From a virus, in the IMG/VR virus record IMGVR_UViG_3300018049_000156, positions 1-23,364 of that record: DNA of 23,364 nucleotides; one strand, 5' to 3'. Positions 5,263-14,296 of the stretch are shown here, piece after piece; within the stretch, counting starts at the first letter, position 1; the number at the start of each line of letters is the position of its first letter. The position numbers and the translations under genes were made by a program. The notes under the pieces were generated by a model, which was not told the DNA's origin, did not search any database, and saw nothing but the letters and a program-made list of their open reading frames with translations.

Positions 5263-6996
5263 CTATAAACCGCCTGTGCCGCCTGCTGGGGGCGTAGCTC
5301 CTGGTTCTGGCGGTGCGGTTGCAGTATCTGGCGGAGTACCTTGATCTATAGCACCTGCTGTTAAATCATCAGTAGGAGCAACTTGATCCATTGCTCCTAA
5401 ATCAGCACCTATGCCACCTGCACTTACTCCTGCCATTCTCATTTCAGCGCTACCATCTGCTTGTAAAGCTTGTTCAGGGTCAGCGTTTTCTTCTTTCCAT
5501 AAAGTTTCGTTTTGAGCTATTTCTTCTTTTGTTAAACCTAAGAATCGTTCAAGCGCAAATCTATTTGAAATATACGGCAATGCTGCCATTTGACCAAATG
5601 TAGGAACTCTAGCATTATCAAGTTCTGCTTGTCTATAACTTGCAAAATTTTGTGGTTTTACAAAAGCAAGATCGAACATTTGCACGTCTATGTTAACTTC
5701 TTTTTCAAGTAAGTAGCGTTTGAATTCTCTATTAAAAGTTTCAATTAACAAGCCTTGCAAACGTTCGCAATAGGTGTTGAATCTTAGCTCTTGTATGTAA
5801 GCAGTGCCTACTCTACCATCTTGGAAATTGTTTGCGCCGTCATCAGCACCTGTCGGAAGATAACTACTAGGAATACGCAAACCTCTTACTAATTTATTTG
5901 TAAAATAACGTAAATCGTCGATTTCGCCTAGGTTTGTACCACCGGGCAATGTTTCAACCTTAGACCCTCTACCTTCAGCAGTCTGAGGAAAGAAGTAGTC
6001 TTCGTTTATTGAAAGCGGGTTGTAAGATGAGTCTATTACATTAGTGCCTCCGCCTGTTGCACTAGGTATTCTACGTTGATGAATTTCAGTTTTAACTCTT
6101 TCAACAAACTGCATTGCTAAGTGTGCAGGCATATTACCTACGTCAACATAAAACACTCTACGCTCGGGTGCACGCTGTACTCTGTAAATAATAATTGCAT
6201 CTTCTAGTAATTCTTTTTGTTTGTATACTTTGAATACAGTTTCTAATAAACTATTACCAAAAGGAAAATTATTATCTAAGCCTTCGCTTAAACTTAAATG
6301 TAGTATATGTTCTGCTGCAATACCTAATTCTTGTTGTTCTTTGTAGAATCTGTTACCAGATTGTTGCGCAGTATTTCCTAGCATGCCTCTTGCACCACCA
6401 GTTAGGTAATTGCCACTAGAATTACCGCCTTGGATATTTCCGTTAGTTTGGTGTGGGGTTGTAGCAATTCCTTCTACAAAGTTAAAATTTATATCCCTAA
6501 CTACGTATTGCTCAGGTATTTTTCCTTTGCTTTCATTTACAATTATACGAGAAACTTTAGCAGGATCTACATGATAAAGTTTTTTAGTTTCTGGATCCCG
6601 TAGAAACATTTCGTCGCCATATTTAAACACATTCCTAAATATTCTAAACATCTTAGTGTCAAAATCATTTAGCTTGCACCATTGGCGCATATATTGTGTT
6701 AATATTTCTATTTCTGAATTAGTTGCCGGTTTGTTAAATTCAAAATCAAAATGGTTGCCTTGATGATTTTTTTGTGTACAAAATTCAGCAAGAATGTCTA
6801 GTGCAGCATTAACTTCACTATCTAAATCCATTGTATTATACTGACCATATCGTTCTACACGATTAGGAGAACCTACATAAACATCTGGCAAGTAACTGCT
6901 GTAGTTTGCACTTGCAGGTCCACTAGTATTAGTTGACGCTCCGTTAATAGGACTTACAGATCCGTCATATGGGGTAAAATATTTTTTCCAACTCAT
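5263..6996 (-). CDS. 20: Portal vertex protein (T4 gp20-like)
   Basis: The dodecameric portal initiates head assembly, is the DNA channel, docks the terminase and later joins the neck. The 577 aa (T4 gp20 is 524 aa) begin with a Ser/Asn/Gly-rich stretch, followed by LDSEVNAALDILAEFC near 58-73. The strongest hallmark is the central block APERRVFYVDVGNMP with an HQRRIPSATGG stretch (near residues 279-318), then the LPGG and LRIPSSYLP segments that are almost invariant in this family. The C-terminus is Ala/Pro/Gly-rich, low in complexity and longer than in T4. It is the first gene of the head operon, with a CATAAATA late promoter 24 bp upstream and a weak AAGTGA ribosome site. Confidence 0.95.
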   Translation of the reverse strand: MSWKKYFTPYDGSVSPINGASTNTSGPASANYSSYLPDVYVGSPNRVERYGQYNTMDLDSEVNAALDILAEFCTQKNHQGNHFDFEFNKPATNSEIEILTQYMRQWCKLNDFDTKMFRIFRNVFKYGDEMFLRDPETKKLYHVDPAKVSRIIVNESKGKIPEQYVVRDINFNFVEGIATTPHQTNGNIQGGNSSGNYLTGGARGMLGNTAQQSGNRFYKEQQELGIAAEHILHLSLSEGLDNNFPFGNSLLETVFKVYKQKELLEDAIIIYRVQRAPERRVFYVDVGNMPAHLAMQFVERVKTEIHQRRIPSATGGGTNVIDSSYNPLSINEDYFFPQTAEGRGSKVETLPGGTNLGEIDDLRYFTNKLVRGLRIPSSYLPTGADDGANNFQDGRVGTAYIQELRFNTYCERLQGLLIETFNREFKRYLLEKEVNIDVQMFDLAFVKPQNFASYRQAELDNARVPTFGQMAALPYISNRFALERFLGLTKEEIAQNETLWKEENADPEQALQADGSAEMRMAGVSAGGIGADLGAMDQVAPTDDLTAGAIDQGTPPDTATAPPEPGATPPAGGTGGL

Positions 6997-7528: not shown

Positions 7529-9688
7529 TTAATTTACTCCAGTTAAACTGTTTAATTGTACTTCTTTTTGGAGGTTTTGGTTAGAATATGAAGTTGTTAT
7601 AGCAGCTTGTGTTGTAGCACCTGCTTGACGATCAGCTCCGCTATCGATTGCTAATTTAATGTTTCTTAGCTCAGTTATAAAAGTTTGAAAGTTATCAATC
7701 AACATTTGTGGCACTCCGCCTTCGTCTTTTGAGCCAATAGTGCTTTCTAAACCTAAATCAGCATCAGATTTAAAATAAGCTCCGTCTCTTGTTTGAAGTC
7801 GACGGGATATATCTGTGTCGTCATTTCCGCCTAATACACCCTCAACTAAAGTGCCTGCACCCTCTACTAAATTGCCTAAAGCGTCTCTTACTGCGTTAGG
7901 TGCTGCACTAAAGTTAAATCCCGATTGCTCTGAAAGGTCTGCCGGTGTACCATTTAATTGTGCGTCTAATATTCGCTTACCTGTTTCTGACCTAAGCGCT
8001 TGTAGTATATCATTCAATACTTGCTGCTGCCCCTCAGTTAATTCAATTCCTGCTTGTTGTAAATCGTATAATTTTACAAAATCATCTAACATAACTTGCT
8101 CTGAGCTTGTAATTTGCCTTTCAGGGTCACTTTTAAATGTAAATGTGCCGGTTTTTATTTCTGCTACTATACTTTCGACAGCAGCATTTATTTGCTCTGC
8201 TCTTATGTCTGTTGCTTCAGAATCAGGACGCAGCAATTCTATACTGTTTGCTAAAGTTTCAGCTGCTGCGCCAATTGTTCCAGCAGCTACACTTACAAGT
8301 CCTAAATTTGCAACTATATCTGCTTGTGCATTAACAAGTTGTTCTGTTTGTCCTGCAATTTTTTGTCTAGTTTCAGTTAATGTACCTATAATTTCATCAT
8401 CCATTCTAGCATTCATTACATCTTGTGCTGCTGCTTGGTTTGCTGCTGTGGCATTAGGATCTGCTCCTGTTTGAAGAATTGATGCTCTCAAGTTTTGGGA
8501 ATCTCTAGATAAAAACCCAAATTCTTCACCCAATACACCCGCGAATGCACCTAGTTCTCCTACTAGATTAGTAGTTTCTTGATTATAAATTTGCTGTAAT
8601 TGCCGTTCAGCAGCTCTAATTTCCTCAGGATCTGCACCTGATGCAATCATTTGGCTAATTTGTTGCATCATTGCAAATGATTGTGGTTTCAAGGCCGCTT
8701 CTATTTCATTACCGATAGGTAGACCTAACCCGCTTATAAATCCTTCGCCTAGATCTGATGCTCCGATTGCTTGTAAAGTAGTTGCAAACCTTGTAAGATT
8801 TTGATTAAATTGCGGGTTGTTAATATTTCTAAGTTGTTGAGATAACATACCCGGTGTTTCTGCTATTGCCTTTGTTGCCTTTACTTGTTCATCTACAGAC
8901 ATGCCAGTAGTTTGCGAAAGCTCTACCATATTTGTAATTAGGTCTTCTTGTACGCTTATAAAATCAAGAACAGCTTGTCTACTTTCCGGCGTAGACTGGT
9001 TATTTTCATCTAGTAATTCTTTTAAATCTACTGCTACGGATGGTCCTAATACACTGCCTAATTGAATAAACATTTCAGATAGTTGAGAAGTGTTAAAACC
9101 TAATGCATCCATTTCTTGCACTAGATTTCGACTACCGTCAATTAACTGGCCATCTTCGCCTGCTTCCGGAATATTTTCAACTGCTTGTTTAAACAGTGCC
9201 ATATTACCTAAAACATCAGTAGCTAGTCCTCCTTGTGCTCTAAGTATATCTGGATTTGATCCTATTTGTTGCAGTTGTTGGTTTGTAATATTTAAATTAG
9301 CTTGATCTCTAAACAATTGCTCTATATTTGTAAACATAGTTCCTTGCTGTGCAAGTTGTTGCGAGACTGTTAGCTGTTGTTCAGCTAATAGAGCTGGTGC
9401 AGTTCCTATGTTAGCAAGTCCAGTTGGATCTAAACCAGCCATTGCTTCTATTGAACCTTGTGCATTACTAGCTGCTCTATTTGCTGTATTTAATATTGTA
9501 GAAGCAGTCTGTATAGCTCCGATCGTTTTATTAACTAAACTTAAATTAGCATCTTGTAATTGATTAATTGAAGTTGTTGCACCGGCTGTAGCACTATTAA
9601 ACGTATATAAACCATCACTAGAAACACCTAAAGCTGAATTAAGGGTAGTAATTGCTTCGGTTAGCTGCCTTAGTAGTTCTTCATCCAT
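7529..9688 (-). CDS. Large helical virion protein, possibly tape-measure-like
   Basis: The 719 aa are rich in Ala, Gln, Asn, Leu and Thr and almost entirely helical in character, with many short heptad-like stretches and no clear transmembrane helix or enzyme motif. A central part (about 190-400) has alternating helices with GLxxSQLSEMFxQLG and Gly-rich turns, a pattern I associate with tape-measure and related tail proteins of marine T4-like phages. The C-terminal 100 residues are polar and less ordered. It lies back to back with gp26, a baseplate-hub gene, with divergent late promoters between them. Ribosome site GGAAA. T4 gp29 is shorter (about 590 aa), and I see no motif that settles the call. 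Confidence 0.55.
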   Translation of the reverse strand: MDEELLRQLTEAITTLNSALGVSSDGLYTFNSATAGATTSINQLQDANLSLVNKTIGAIQTASTILNTANRAASNAQGSIEAMAGLDPTGLANIGTAPALLAEQQLTVSQQLAQQGTMFTNIEQLFRDQANLNITNQQLQQIGSNPDILRAQGGLATDVLGNMALFKQAVENIPEAGEDGQLIDGSRNLVQEMDALGFNTSQLSEMFIQLGSVLGPSVAVDLKELLDENNQSTPESRQAVLDFISVQEDLITNMVELSQTTGMSVDEQVKATKAIAETPGMLSQQLRNINNPQFNQNLTRFATTLQAIGASDLGEGFISGLGLPIGNEIEAALKPQSFAMMQQISQMIASGADPEEIRAAERQLQQIYNQETTNLVGELGAFAGVLGEEFGFLSRDSQNLRASILQTGADPNATAANQAAAQDVMNARMDDEIIGTLTETRQKIAGQTEQLVNAQADIVANLGLVSVAAGTIGAAAETLANSIELLRPDSEATDIRAEQINAAVESIVAEIKTGTFTFKSDPERQITSSEQVMLDDFVKLYDLQQAGIELTEGQQQVLNDILQALRSETGKRILDAQLNGTPADLSEQSGFNFSAAPNAVRDALGNLVEGAGTLVEGVLGGNDDTDISRRLQTRDGAYFKSDADLGLESTIGSKDEGGVPQMLIDNFQTFITELRNIKLAIDSGADRQAGATTQAAITTSYSNQNLQKEVQLNSLTGVN

Positions 9689-9744: not shown

Positions 9745-10590
9745 ATGTCTACATTTCTAAACAAACACAGTCGACAACCTAAGCTGTATATTGACCTTCC
9801 GTCTAGTGGCAAGTACTACAAAGACGGAGTTATTGAAGACAATCAATTTGTGCACATACCTGTATTTGCCATGACCACTGCTGACGAGATAACAACAAAG
9901 ACTCCTGATGCTTTGTTTTCAGGACATGCAGTTGCTGATGTGATTAAAAGTTGTGTTCCGCTAATTACCACACCATGGTCATTAATTAAAACAGATCTTG
10001 AATATATATTAACTGCTATCAAAATAGCTTCAATAGGCGATAAAACAACAATTAGTACAACATGTCCTAAATGCAGTACTGAAAGTCATGTAGAATTAGA
10101 ATTACAAAATATTTTAAATTTTTATGATAGCATAGAACATCATTATGACTTTGAAATTGACAACTTTAAAATTACACTTGCTCCAGTAAATTATAAAAAT
10201 CTTACCGAATTAGGTTTAGCTTCCTATAGTGTGCAACGTCAATTATATCAAATAACAACTTCTGATTTATCCGAAGATGAAAAAATGTCTAAACTAGCTG
10301 AACTTAACAACATGTTAACTAATGAAAATTTAAAAACTTTAATTAGGTATATAAAAAATATCGAAGAAATAAATTCATCCGAAGAAGAAAATGATAATAA
10401 TAAAATATTTGAGTTTATTAAAAACAATGACAGTAAAATTTTAAAAAGTTACAGTGCCCATATTCAAAAATATACAGAATCAATTAATTATCCTGAGCAA
10501 AATATTCAATGTGAAAACGAAGAATGCGAACATATTTTTTCTGTAAAATACAATAGTGATTACTCGGCTTTTTTCGATCGTACATCTTAA
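9745..10590 (+). CDS. 26: Baseplate hub protein (T4 gp26-like)
   Basis: This protein is needed to assemble the central hub of the baseplate in T4. The 281 aa carry the family pattern: LPSSGKYY near 18-25, then DEITTKTPDALFSG (47-60) and an LEYILTAIKIASIG helix (85-98). There is also a probable zinc site of four cysteines, CPKC at 107-110 and C256/C261 in CENEECEH. The zero-frame protein ends FFDRTS. Just before the end, the codons GCT TTT TTC contain the heptamer T-TTT-TTC, and a -1 shift there continues into the gp51 frame, so two products (281 and about 354 aa) are likely. T4 gp26 is about 208 aa. GGA 8-11 bp upstream is the ribosome site. Confidence 0.88.
   Translation: MSTFLNKHSRQPKLYIDLPSSGKYYKDGVIEDNQFVHIPVFAMTTADEITTKTPDALFSGHAVADVIKSCVPLITTPWSLIKTDLEYILTAIKIASIGDKTTISTTCPKCSTESHVELELQNILNFYDSIEHHYDFEIDNFKITLAPVNYKNLTELGLASYSVQRQLYQITTSDLSEDEKMSKLAELNNMLTNENLKTLIRYIKNIEEINSSEEENDNNKIFEFIKNNDSKILKSYSAHIQKYTESINYPEQNIQCENEECEHIFSVKYNSDYSAFFDRTS
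10569..10575 (+). promoter_or_regulatory. Candidate -1 ribosomal frameshift site, heptamer T TTT TTC
   Basis: In the gp26 frame the codons are GCT TTT TTC, so the X_XXY_YYZ rule is met (T_TTT_TTC). The -1 frame is open from 10560 to the gp51 stop, and the heptamer lies inside that overlap. About 16 bases downstream a weak hairpin (ACTC 10592-10595 with GAGT 10605-10608) could act as stimulator. No strong pseudoknot was found by eye. Confidence 0.6.
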
Positions 10591-10808
10591 GACTCTCTGA
10601 TTCTGAGTTACAAGAATTGATTAAAAAATATGAAAATCAAATAAAAGAATTAAAATATAATGTTTATAAAATAGGCTGGTTTATGCGAGGTTTTATAACT
10701 TATACTGATGCTATGCATGTAATATCTAGCGAAGATTTAACAATATTTAATGATATAATAAAAGAAAATATGGATATTACAAAAGAAACAAAATTACCTT
10801 TTATCTAA
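10575..10808 (+). CDS. 51: Baseplate hub assembly protein (T4 gp51-like), probably a -1 frameshift extension of gp26
   Basis: The region encodes the conserved block of marine T4-like gp51: a Glu/Lys-rich helix, then IKELKYNVYKIGWFMRG, then a DLTIFNDIIKENMDITKETKLPF end that is very typical. No ATG precedes this block: the only candidate initiator is TTG at 10617, without a ribosome site, and it would cut off protein-like sequence (FFRSYILRLSDSELQEL) encoded upstream. The frame is -1 relative to gp26 and is entered from the heptamer at 10569-10575, adding 77 residues to give a fusion of about 354 aa. The stop TAA overlaps the stop of the convergent 354-aa gene. The role in hub assembly is inferred from T4. 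Confidence 0.75.
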   Translation, partial: RSYILRLSDSELQELIKKYENQIKELKYNVYKIGWFMRGFITYTDAMHVISSEDLTIFNDIIKENMDITKETKLPFI

Positions 10809-11869
10809 ACAGAATTAGTATCTTGGTAGTGCTGCATTACTTGCTGTCTTTCCCATGCTTTTAAAGCTTGATATTCTACTGCATATTCGTCTGGATTAGA
10901 ACGTATTTCGTCTGCTGCTACTTTAACAAATTCACTCCATGTAATTTCTAACGATGCAACTTCTTCTTGTGAAAGGATGCTATCATCTTCTCCCATGCCT
11001 TCTATACTAGCAACTTGGATCCCTGCAACTCTTGCAAATTGACTAAGTGTTTTTTTTCTTAGTAAGCGATTCATAATCCATTTTGCAAGATATTTTGCTA
11101 CTGGATCACTCCATGTGGCATAATTTTGAACTGCTGTTCTTACTGCAATGTAACCAGCTGCGCCAACTACAAACTGAGCTATTCCTACTAATCGACCTCC
11201 CGGACCACCTAGTCCAGATATTCTTAACAATATTCTACTTATAAATTTAGTTACTCTTGCACCGCCAGCCATCATGATTAACCAAGTATACAGATAGGTT
11301 TTTATTTCTAAATAAAGTTGACCAGTGAAAGTATTAATTCTATCTGGATTATCTAGATAATAATCAATATAAGGATCCTCATACCAATCTCTACGTTTAT
11401 AATCTCTTACAGGCACTATATCTTTACCTAGTCTCGAGTTGGGATATTTAACAACACCTGAAAAACTAGTTTGTGTAACATACGCTATAAATCGTATTAA
11501 CCACCCTTGAAAAAAACCAAGTGCTACAAGTCTTTGGAAAAAGTGCCCTGGCCCTGCTACTATTCGATAACCAAGACGTAATAGTCTCTGAATTTTATTA
11601 GGTTTTTTTGGCTCTTTATCAGCTGGCTTATTTCTATCTGTGTCTGTAGCAGTTGAAGTGTTATCAGGATCAGGTTTGGTGTTACTAGAAGTAGTAGTTG
11701 CTTGTGTTCTTAAATCAGCATCAATCTTTATTCTATCTTGATTAGCTAATGCTCTATTTTTGTAAATTTTATCAGATACAGCTTTACCGTCAGGTCCAAA
11801 TATTTGAAAACCACCAGGCACCTTTTCAACTGTTGTTATATCTTCTGCTAAAAATTCAGTAGCTTTCAT
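10805..11869 (-). CDS. Candidate packaged (internal) protein with membrane segments
   Basis: The 354 aa start MKATEFLAED, closely resembling the T4 internal-protein capsid-targeting peptide (MKTYQEFIAE before Ala) that gp21 cuts after Glu; here the cut would follow Glu9. Next come an unstructured Thr/Asp/Lys-rich linker (55-92) and hydrophobic stretches near 112-132, 184-202 and 226-246 with glycines, suggesting membrane-inserting helices. The C-terminal third is amphipathic and charged. I recognise no domain family. It overlaps the 480-aa gene upstream by one base (TAATG), so the two are translationally coupled and probably act together. I infer packaging in the head and ejection with the DNA, perhaps into the host envelope. 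An alternative is an ordinary tail or neck protein. Confidence 0.65.
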   Translation of the reverse strand: MKATEFLAEDITTVEKVPGGFQIFGPDGKAVSDKIYKNRALANQDRIKIDADLRTQATTTSSNTKPDPDNTSTATDTDRNKPADKEPKKPNKIQRLLRLGYRIVAGPGHFFQRLVALGFFQGWLIRFIAYVTQTSFSGVVKYPNSRLGKDIVPVRDYKRRDWYEDPYIDYYLDNPDRINTFTGQLYLEIKTYLYTWLIMMAGGARVTKFISRILLRISGLGGPGGRLVGIAQFVVGAAGYIAVRTAVQNYATWSDPVAKYLAKWIMNRLLRKKTLSQFARVAGIQVASIEGMGEDDSILSQEEVASLEITWSEFVKVAADEIRSNPDEYAVEYQALKAWERQQVMQHYQDTNSV

Positions 11870-13311
11870 TATGCAGCCTTTTTCATAATTTGTTCTAATG
11901 TGCGTAATTTTTTTCCTGTTAATTCTTTTTGAAGACTTGTAATAACGTTTTCAAACATACTTTCTATTTCTATAGCAGTACTTTGATCTATCACACTAGA
12001 AAAATCCATGTTTTGAACTTTGTCGCCGGTTTCATTATCGATTATATCTGCATCAGGTTCAGCAGCTTCGTTTGTCTTTGTACTACATACAAAATCAATG
12101 TATTCATTACTACCGAACTCTTTCATAATCATTACTGCCATTGGTTCGGTTATCATTTTTCCTTTTTCGTCTGCTTGGAACTCTTTGATAAATTTGTTAA
12201 TTAACATAGTCAACAACCAGCCGACGCCAACAGACACAATTGCGCTTACTACTCCAGCAAAGAACCCTACACCAGAACCTGCTATAATGCCGCTTACTGC
12301 TAGTGCAATCCCTCGTATAATTGATATACCTACTATTGTACCTACAAGTAAAGTAGGTATAGTAGCAAATAATTCTTCGCTTATTCTTTCTGTAAATGGT
12401 GATCTTGTTATTGTATCACTACGTGCAGGAATCAAATATATCGGCTCAATACCGGTACCAATTGGTATAGATATACCATCAGGTGTTAATTTATCTCTTA
12501 AAGAACTCATTGGATCGCTAATAGCGGTTTGGCCAGGTAACATAAACCAACGATCATTTATCTTTACGTCTGCTTTTATTAATTCTGCTTGTCTACCTTT
12601 GTTATTAAAGTTTAAGTCAACAAATCCATCTCGATTTATACTATAGCTAGGATTATCACACGGCACTGGATTTTTACTATTTTTTATTTGGTGAACACCT
12701 AATAGATATGAGTGCCAATCTTCGAGTATTCTTGCATAATTACCAACCACTGCCGGTACAGCTATGATAGTAAACAATGGGTTTCGTGCACCCATGTTGT
12801 CTAGTTTTTTATTAGTAAAGTCCATTAGTTTACTTAGTTTTGACTGTCGTCTTTTTGCTGTTGCTACTTGTTGCTGAATTTGTTTAGCTTCTTGTGGCGT
12901 TTGCGGTTCATATGTAGTTGGTTTAGGTTGAGGCTCCGGAGTACTCCTAGCTGTAGTACTGCTGCTACCTGTCGACGGCGTCTTTTTTATAGGGTCGCTG
13001 TAAACCATACTAGGTTTACCGTAGAATCGTCTTATGTAATCAGCATCCTTATTTTGACGCTCTAAATAAGATTCAAGCTGGTTTTGTAATGACCCCCACA
13101 TTATACGAAATTTTGGATCACGCAGTTGTTTTTTTATTTTTTTAATTTTTTTATCATAAAATTTAGTATTAGCTTTATAATATTGTTGTTCAGCACCAGG
13201 AGAATTGGGGTCTATTTCAGGAAATCTACTAGAAATTTGTTTAAACATATTCTTTGCTAATGTTGTTGGTTCGTCTTGTTCAACAATTACTACAAATTCT
13301 TGTGCTTTCAT
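11869..13311 (-). CDS. Candidate packaged (internal) protein with hydrophobic Gly-rich domain
   Basis: The 480 aa begin MKAQEFVVIVEQ, again like the T4 capsid-targeting peptide, with a possible gp21 cut after Glu11. A charged helical region (40-100) and a Pro/Thr/Ser/Gln linker (108-142) follow. Then a hydrophobic stretch lies near 177-192, a soluble domain at about 200-310, and a long hydrophobic region (314-375) with Gly-zipper-like spacing that could make two or three membrane helices. The tail is acidic, then basic. It is the first gene of a two-gene operon with a CATAAATA late promoter 28 bp upstream and ribosome site AAGGAA. No known family recognised. Membrane activity during DNA entry is an inference from the targeting-like N-terminus and the hydrophobic region. 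Confidence 0.65.
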   Translation of the reverse strand: MKAQEFVVIVEQDEPTTLAKNMFKQISSRFPEIDPNSPGAEQQYYKANTKFYDKKIKKIKKQLRDPKFRIMWGSLQNQLESYLERQNKDADYIRRFYGKPSMVYSDPIKKTPSTGSSSTTARSTPEPQPKPTTYEPQTPQEAKQIQQQVATAKRRQSKLSKLMDFTNKKLDNMGARNPLFTIIAVPAVVGNYARILEDWHSYLLGVHQIKNSKNPVPCDNPSYSINRDGFVDLNFNNKGRQAELIKADVKINDRWFMLPGQTAISDPMSSLRDKLTPDGISIPIGTGIEPIYLIPARSDTITRSPFTERISEELFATIPTLLVGTIVGISIIRGIALAVSGIIAGSGVGFFAGVVSAIVSVGVGWLLTMLINKFIKEFQADEKGKMITEPMAVMIMKEFGSNEYIDFVCSTKTNEAAEPDADIIDNETGDKVQNMDFSSVIDQSTAIEIESMFENVITSLQKELTGKKLRTLEQIMKKAA

Positions 13312-13855: not shown

Positions 13856-14296
13856 CTAAAGTTTTGTTTTACCTGTTTCATTGCCTAGGTACTCCTTTAA
13901 TATTTTAGAACTGCCTATCCTAACGTTTATTATTCCGTTATAGTAATTGTCAGATTCTAAAACTCGCCTTTCAAATTGTTCTCGTGCTTCTAAATAACTT
14001 GCAATGCCTCTACTGGGACAAATGTAAAGTATTTCTCTTGTAAATTTTTCTTTGCCTAAATTTTCTATGTCTTTTGTTAAATGATCAGAAGAACCCCAGT
14101 AGTCTCTCCAATCACTTTCTACTTTTGTACGCCTTTTGTTTTTCTTTCCTTTAAGAGGTGGTCGAGTTTTTGTAGATTTTGCGTATTTCTTGCCTATATA
14201 TTGCTTACCGTTAACTGTATTTGTAATCACATATACAAAACCTTCACAGTTATCAGGTAAACTATCGATTACATTGCCTTTATAGGTCCATTCCAT
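13856..14296 (-). CDS. GIY-YIG homing endonuclease
   Basis: This is a DNA endonuclease of the type encoded by free-standing mobile genes in T4-like phages (Seg family). The 146 aa hold one GIY-YIG domain: VYVI at 21-24 with the paired YIGKK at 33-37, a basic loop (KKNKRR near 51-56), an ESDWRDYWGSS block near 60-70 that is frequent in phage members, and a probable metal-binding Glu in the YLEAREQFE helix (Glu106). The residues needed for activity appear intact. There is no obvious DNA-binding tail after the domain. It lies at the end of the gp47-gp46 operon, beside the unusual hairpin-rich block, which could be its insertion site or cargo. No good ribosome site is visible before the ATG. Confidence 0.85.
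   Translation of the reverse strand: MEWTYKGNVIDSLPDNCEGFVYVITNTVNGKQYIGKKYAKSTKTRPPLKGKKNKRRTKVESDWRDYWGSSDHLTKDIENLGKEKFTREILYICPSRGIASYLEAREQFERRVLESDNYYNGIINVRIGSSKILKEYLGNETGKTKL

Follow-up and report, generated by a model that had tools for sequence, protein, structure and literature searches.

Phage lambda makes its tail assembly chaperones G and GT as two nested products of a frameshift, at a slip sequence that differs from T_TTT_TTC. For T4-like phages, Vladimirov, Gautam and Davidson (2022, Virology 566:9-15) reportedly proposed frameshifted tail assembly chaperones, TAC-N/TAC-NC, and their abstract is said to name T4 genes 26 and 51 and to describe frameshifting as kept in several T4-like groups. 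A citing paper reports poly-T slip sites in the short chaperone genes of T4-like phages and proposes, for the chaperone of Vandenendeviridae/Andersonviridae, a -1 shift at a poly-T site (GTTTTT motif) that yields short and long forms (PMC12846349). Another describes some T4-like phages as having a short gene and a separate long fusion gene instead (PMC10885494). In PMC3004832, T4 gp26 and gp51 both figure among the hub assembly chaperones, with gp51 missing from the particle.

Here we describe a locus of this kind in the window, by which we mean the whole 23,364-base virus record IMGVR_UViG_3300018049_000156 (G000), a fragment of a T4-like virus. A gp26-like gene in the window overlaps a -1 reading frame, and a first-pass annotation had proposed that a programmed frameshift joins the two into a gp26-gp51 fusion, likening the arrangement to lambda G/GT. 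The likeness was well chosen and, for T4-like phages, already in print. We consider it highly probable that the locus encodes a short/long pair of tail assembly chaperones through a -1 frameshift, in the manner of G/GT. As a frameshifted chaperone has already been proposed for T4-like phages, what the window locus adds is a divergent lineage: it has in common with TAC-N/TAC-NC a poly-T slip site close to where the short gene ends, but it is only ~25-35% identical to the named phages, and its extension had no match in Pfam or PHROG. With it, the range of the frameshifted chaperone widens to divergent T4-like phages in which the extension belongs to no database family. As in lambda, two nested products are predicted; unlike in lambda, the window gene is divergent from its tape-measure candidate and not upstream of it, and no protein relation to G/GT was shown. 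T4 gp26 and gp51 belong to the same Pfam family as the window gene, whereas T4 has two separate divergent genes and no slip site. Vandenendeviridae/Andersonviridae are a different phage group, and their chaperone is likened to ours by description.

Slip site and reading frames

The gp26-like gene (Table 1) scored 49.5 bits against the PF12322 (T4_baseplate) profile, for which the curated cut-off is 24.5, and its PHROG match, phrog_150, is a baseplate hub family. The 3' end of the gene reads ...TCG GCT TTT TTC GAT CGT ACA TCT TAA, with the stop codon TAA at 10588-10590. Base 10569 is at codon position 3 and is followed by TTT (10570-72) and TTC (10573-75), which is the phase needed for tandem -1 slippage. 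Between the heptamer and the stop codon lie 12 bases; the distance of 15 bases in the first-pass annotation includes the stop itself. The other elements of that description, an in-phase heptamer, a -1 frame open from 10560 and a fusion of about 354 amino acids (aa), are borne out, as the -1 frame is without a stop from 10560 to 10808 and the product of a -1 slip would measure 277 + 77 = 354 aa.

In the mechanism that we propose, most ribosomes would end at the gp26 stop and release the short form of 281 aa. A minority would slip at T_TTT_TTC, where the two Phe-tRNAs on TTT and TTC would move back by one base and re-pair with TTT TTT, and these ribosomes would then read the -1 frame to 10806, giving the long form, whose C-terminal extension is predicted to be helical. 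If the pair works like lambda G/GT, the common N-terminal part would coat the tape measure protein and the extension would recruit tail-tube subunits, with the short/long ratio set by slip efficiency.

Taken alone, the window sequence suggests a frameshift without proving it, and the comparison with relatives decides. TTTTTTC occurs 15 times in the window (15.3 expected; the copy at 10535 does not fall in phase), so the heptamer by itself is not unusual. Across the 22 window genes scanned there are 65 in-phase XXXYYYZ heptamers, only two of which both lie at most 20 codons from a stop and lead into a frame extending more than 30 codons past it, namely T_TTT_TTC in gp26 and A_AAA_AAA in the gene at 11869-13311 (- strand). 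The latter lies 12 codons ahead of the stop, and its -1 frame enters the gene at 10805-11869, with a TAATG overlap. As a second frameshift site A_AAA_AAA was rejected: it is not kept in the relatives L146-L148, in which the adjacent gene begins with an ATG of its own, and it is probably incidental.

Conservation in near and distant relatives

Four near-identical contigs (L002-L005) have the same junction over the stretch compared, which argues against an assembly error. Another four relatives encode gp26 proteins with 52% (L146/L147), 47% (L148) and 46% (L149) identity to that of the window, and L146 scored 56.2 bits against PF12322. In all four, T_TTT_TTC is kept 3-4 codons ahead of the gp26 stop, and the open -1 stretch, if counting begins at the heptamer, is exactly 79 codons long and aligns to the window without gaps. 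The first-pass annotation had noted that the sequence ahead of TTG 10617 reads as protein, and the comparison agrees: between 10575 and 10616 the nonsynonymous differences among the four (pN) were below the synonymous ones (pS), with changes concentrated at third positions of the -1 frame, like in the rest of the extension. Judging from this substitution pattern, the segment is very probably translated in the -1 frame, which a shift from within gp26 would explain most simply. No relative was found in the genome contigs searched, and a phage search with the extension alone as query gave no match.

T_TTT_TTC was found in the same phase in the jumbo phages PA5oct, Atu_ph07, RaK2, 121Q, SCTP-2 and Vibrio phage 2.275.O, as well as in GAP32, CBB and the cyanophages S-SM1 and S-RIM8, with T_TTT_TTT instead in XacN1 and RAS14. 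It lies 1-11 codons ahead of the stop in all 94 of the 94 IMG/VR loci collected with cyano-type and RaK2-type queries. Conservation of the heptamer and of the -1 phase had been named in the first-pass annotation as one way to check its proposal; both are present in every near relative, and all 97 of the 97 distinct junctions taken from marine phages, cyanophages and jumbo phages carry the slip site unchanged. All seven heptamer columns had zero entropy and the adjacent wobble bases vary, while in cyano-type loci the -1-frame codon-position entropies of 0.71/0.45/1.23 follow the pattern of coding DNA. Many cyano-type loci (L022-L101) also carry a Shine-Dalgarno (SD)-like 4-mer 12-15 bases upstream of the heptamer, a possible stimulator that coincides with conserved Glu-Gly codons. 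The mean z of downstream folding over all junctions was about -1.4.

These data bear on whether the -1 frame could be a separate small gene, begun at TTG 10617 or ATG 10683 and perhaps translationally coupled to gp26. The first-pass annotation had described the frame as having no ATG and no ribosome site. ATGs do occur, at 10683 and 10713, both deep within the extension domain; the description holds for the region of the earliest possible start, TTG 10617, which has at most a weak GAG upstream, while the other window genes checked begin with ATG, many with a GGA/GGAG-like site. Separate genes of 60-70 aa are annotated here in 121Q, SCTP-2, S-SM1 and GAP32, and an ATG lies near the gp26 stop in many cyano-type loci. 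A separate gene is nevertheless quite improbable, since it would leave the invariant heptamer unexplained and since the stretch ahead of TTG 10617 is itself conserved as -1-frame protein. Moreover, L146 has TTA in place of TTG 10617, the early -1 frame of PA5oct is free of ATG, GTG and TTG, 21/97 junctions have none of these codons in the first 15 -1-frame codons, and an ATG/GTG with an SD-like 4-mer was present in just 2 of the 97. An independent start at TTG 10617 or ATG 10683 was rejected on leader conservation and start-codon comparison, and a separate gp51 with its own ATG and ribosome site is not consistently conserved among the relatives. In public annotations, the PA5oct extension is omitted and those of 121Q (L012), S-SM1 (L015) and GAP32 (L019) appear as a separate small gene; none of these four fuses the extension to gp26. 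For annotation, the simple rule would be that gp51 genes called separately 3' of gp26 are in many cases second halves of fusions.

The homopolymeric T run also raises the question of RNA polymerase slippage, which would fuse the frames through mRNAs with an altered number of U, and in HTVC008M, Cr30 and phiM12 the slip site indeed has 7 or 8 T. Polymerase slippage requires no codon phase, however, and usually takes place on longer runs, whereas the run here is exactly 6 T followed by C, in one fixed codon phase, in 97/97 distinct junctions. We regard it as very improbable.

Finally, the heptamer could be coincidental, with no fusion made, the Phe-Phe pair retained for the sake of the protein and the -1 frame a leftover. 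The expected frequency of TTTTTTC in the window would suit such a coincidence, and F276 and F277 are invariant residues. A Phe-Phe pair does not need TTT and then TTC after a T, however, and in 91 distinct gp26 genes the terminal pair is written T_TTT_TTC in 91/91 cases against 0/92 for the other Phe-Phe pairs (Fisher p=1e-54, a value that overstates independence as the sequences are related). Together with the purifying selection on the -1 frame, this makes coincidence exceedingly improbable.

Identity of the extension

The window extension is homologous along its full length to those of PA5oct, Atu_ph07, SCTP-2 and L115 (prob 98.4), and this group links to the RaK2 type (prob 95.6). An AlphaFold2 (AF2) model of the extension was confident and helical, with a predicted local distance difference test score (pLDDT) of 85.7, and a fold search with it was uninformative. 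The AF2 model of gp26, likewise confident (pLDDT 84.6), matched viral baseplate-hub proteins of many phages.

Several results weigh against a frameshifted gp26-gp51 chaperone in the window. No downstream RNA structure was found by folding at the window junction (z=-0.6 and -0.3), nor any upstream SD-like stimulator, so the slip efficiency is not predictable. The gp26 model matched nothing in the PDB below E=0.1, and no solved chaperone. The window is a 23-kb fragment, and a second full-length gene may sit elsewhere in the genome. Direct hhalign comparison of the window extension with the extensions of cyanophages or of T4 gp51 gave no match, and merged profiles aligned an MP..ER-like motif with the C-terminal part of gp51 (phrog_634) at a marginal prob 57, E=1e-4. 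Within the gp26-gp51 pair of the first-pass annotation, the frameshift fusion is well supported, and the label gp51 has only a marginal profile link with T4 gp51, in its C-terminal part. The name appears reasonable in function, and the profile evidence lends weak support to a homology that is not proven.

One gene or two

When whole genomes were searched for PF12322, KVP40, HTVC008M, phiM12, phiW-14, P-SSM2, Vi01, Cr30, SP-15, S-SM1 and 121Q gave one copy of the family each, and T4, RB49 and Campylobacter phage CP220 gave two. Ahead of the gp26 stop, the phages with one copy carry T_TTT_TTC or T_TTT_TTT, except Vi01 and SP-15. In contrast, the gp26 genes of T4, RB49, phiAS4, PhT2, phiP4-3, RB43 and CP220 are without slip site and without extension; in phiAS4, PhT2, phiP4-3 and RB43, both genes were assigned from annotation and position. 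In Salmonella phage Vi01 (L131, about 2200-2500), the single-copy gp26-family gene has a homologous-looking -1 extension at a non-canonical GAA_ATT_TTC.

T4 gp26 and gp51 both belong to PF12322, gp51 consisting of the family domain plus a C-terminal extension, and on these profile matches the two are paralogues. In hhalign, the alignment of a cyanophage fusion with T4 gp51 begins close to the start and runs on into the extension (prob 96.7, E=3e-10). In the tree, T4-type gp26 and gp51 genes form one clade, apart from the single gene of KVP40, a pattern that a replacement of frameshifting by duplication in the T4-type phages would predict. The two CP220 genes group together outside this clade, on long branches, which hints at a second, separate duplication. 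One of the two (L138, L141) has an in-frame gp51-like C-terminus, and there is no slip site.

A marine branch with another proposed shift

The distant relative L151 (PF12322, E=1.6e-15) leads to a group of marine loci within the family, L156-L180, whose members are 42-100% identical to it. Every L156-L180 junction compared has GAC TTT TTT TGG CCT (GACTTTTTTTGGCCT) ahead of the stop, and L181 reads differently; in L151 the site falls within L151:5225-5300. In L156-L180 the -1 frame closes early and the extension (FFGL...) lies in the +1 (or -2) frame. Such an arrangement could result from a +1 slip at TTT_TGG, where the seven-T run allows perfect re-pairing, or from a -2 slip. Likewise, gp26 of Bacillus phage SP-15 (L017:3640-3940) ends in GAA_TTT_TTT_CAC, with an extension in the +1/-2 frame. 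A change of shift direction within one family may be new.

It is fairly likely that one orthologous PF12322 chaperone family has switched its way of producing the long form several times: by -1 slip at T_TTT_TTC/T_TTT_TTT (the window and most lineages), by +1 (or -2) slip at GAC_TTT_TTT_TGG_CCT (L156-L180 and probably SP-15), and by duplication (the T4-type phages and, perhaps independently, CP220). If true, the family would be a natural series for studying swaps of recoding signals in which the fusion product is kept.

Gene context

Table 1 Features of the chaperone locus and neighbouring genes in the window.
Feature	Position	Strand	Remarks
T4-like portal protein gp20	5263-6996	-	PF07230 E=9e-107
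Divergent neighbour, tape-measure candidate by position	7529-9688	-	719 aa; place and orientation match PA5oct, RaK2, 121Q
gp26-like gene, putative short form of tail assembly chaperone	9745-10590	+	281 aa; PF12322 E=5.7e-13, phrog_150 E=5e-14
Slippery heptamer T_TTT_TTC	10569-10575	+	in phase in gp26, 4 codons ahead of stop
Zero-frame gp26 tail 3' of slip site (D R T S stop)	10576-10590	+	
-1-frame extension, predicted second part of long form	10575-10808	+	77 aa + stop 10806-10808; AF2 helical, pLDDT 85.7
Extension part ahead of any possible start codon	10575-10616	+	evolves as -1-frame protein

The place between tail tube and tape measure is the usual one for tail assembly chaperones in long-tailed phages. 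Judged by eye from its translations, L151 has tail sheath, tail tube, gp26, extension and a 743-aa tape-measure-like protein in this order, and the SP-15 annotation runs sheath, tube, gp26, small open reading frame (ORF), tape measure. PA5oct, RaK2 and 121Q have structural proteins of 720-800 aa between portal and gp26, with gp26 divergent from them, as in the window. From its position, the product of 7529-9688 would be the tape measure; its sequence matched neither T4 gp29 nor the RaK2 and PA5oct counterparts. A minor long form made by rare slipping would fit a protein once studied as acting catalytically (1968 work).

The window also encodes a gp53-like wedge protein. Rfam and tRNA scans were empty. 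On the - strand, at 13856-14296 and near genes that by eye resemble gp46/gp47, a 146-aa ORF has a start (GFVYVITNTVNGKQYIGKKY) that resembles, again by eye, a GIY-YIG endonuclease.
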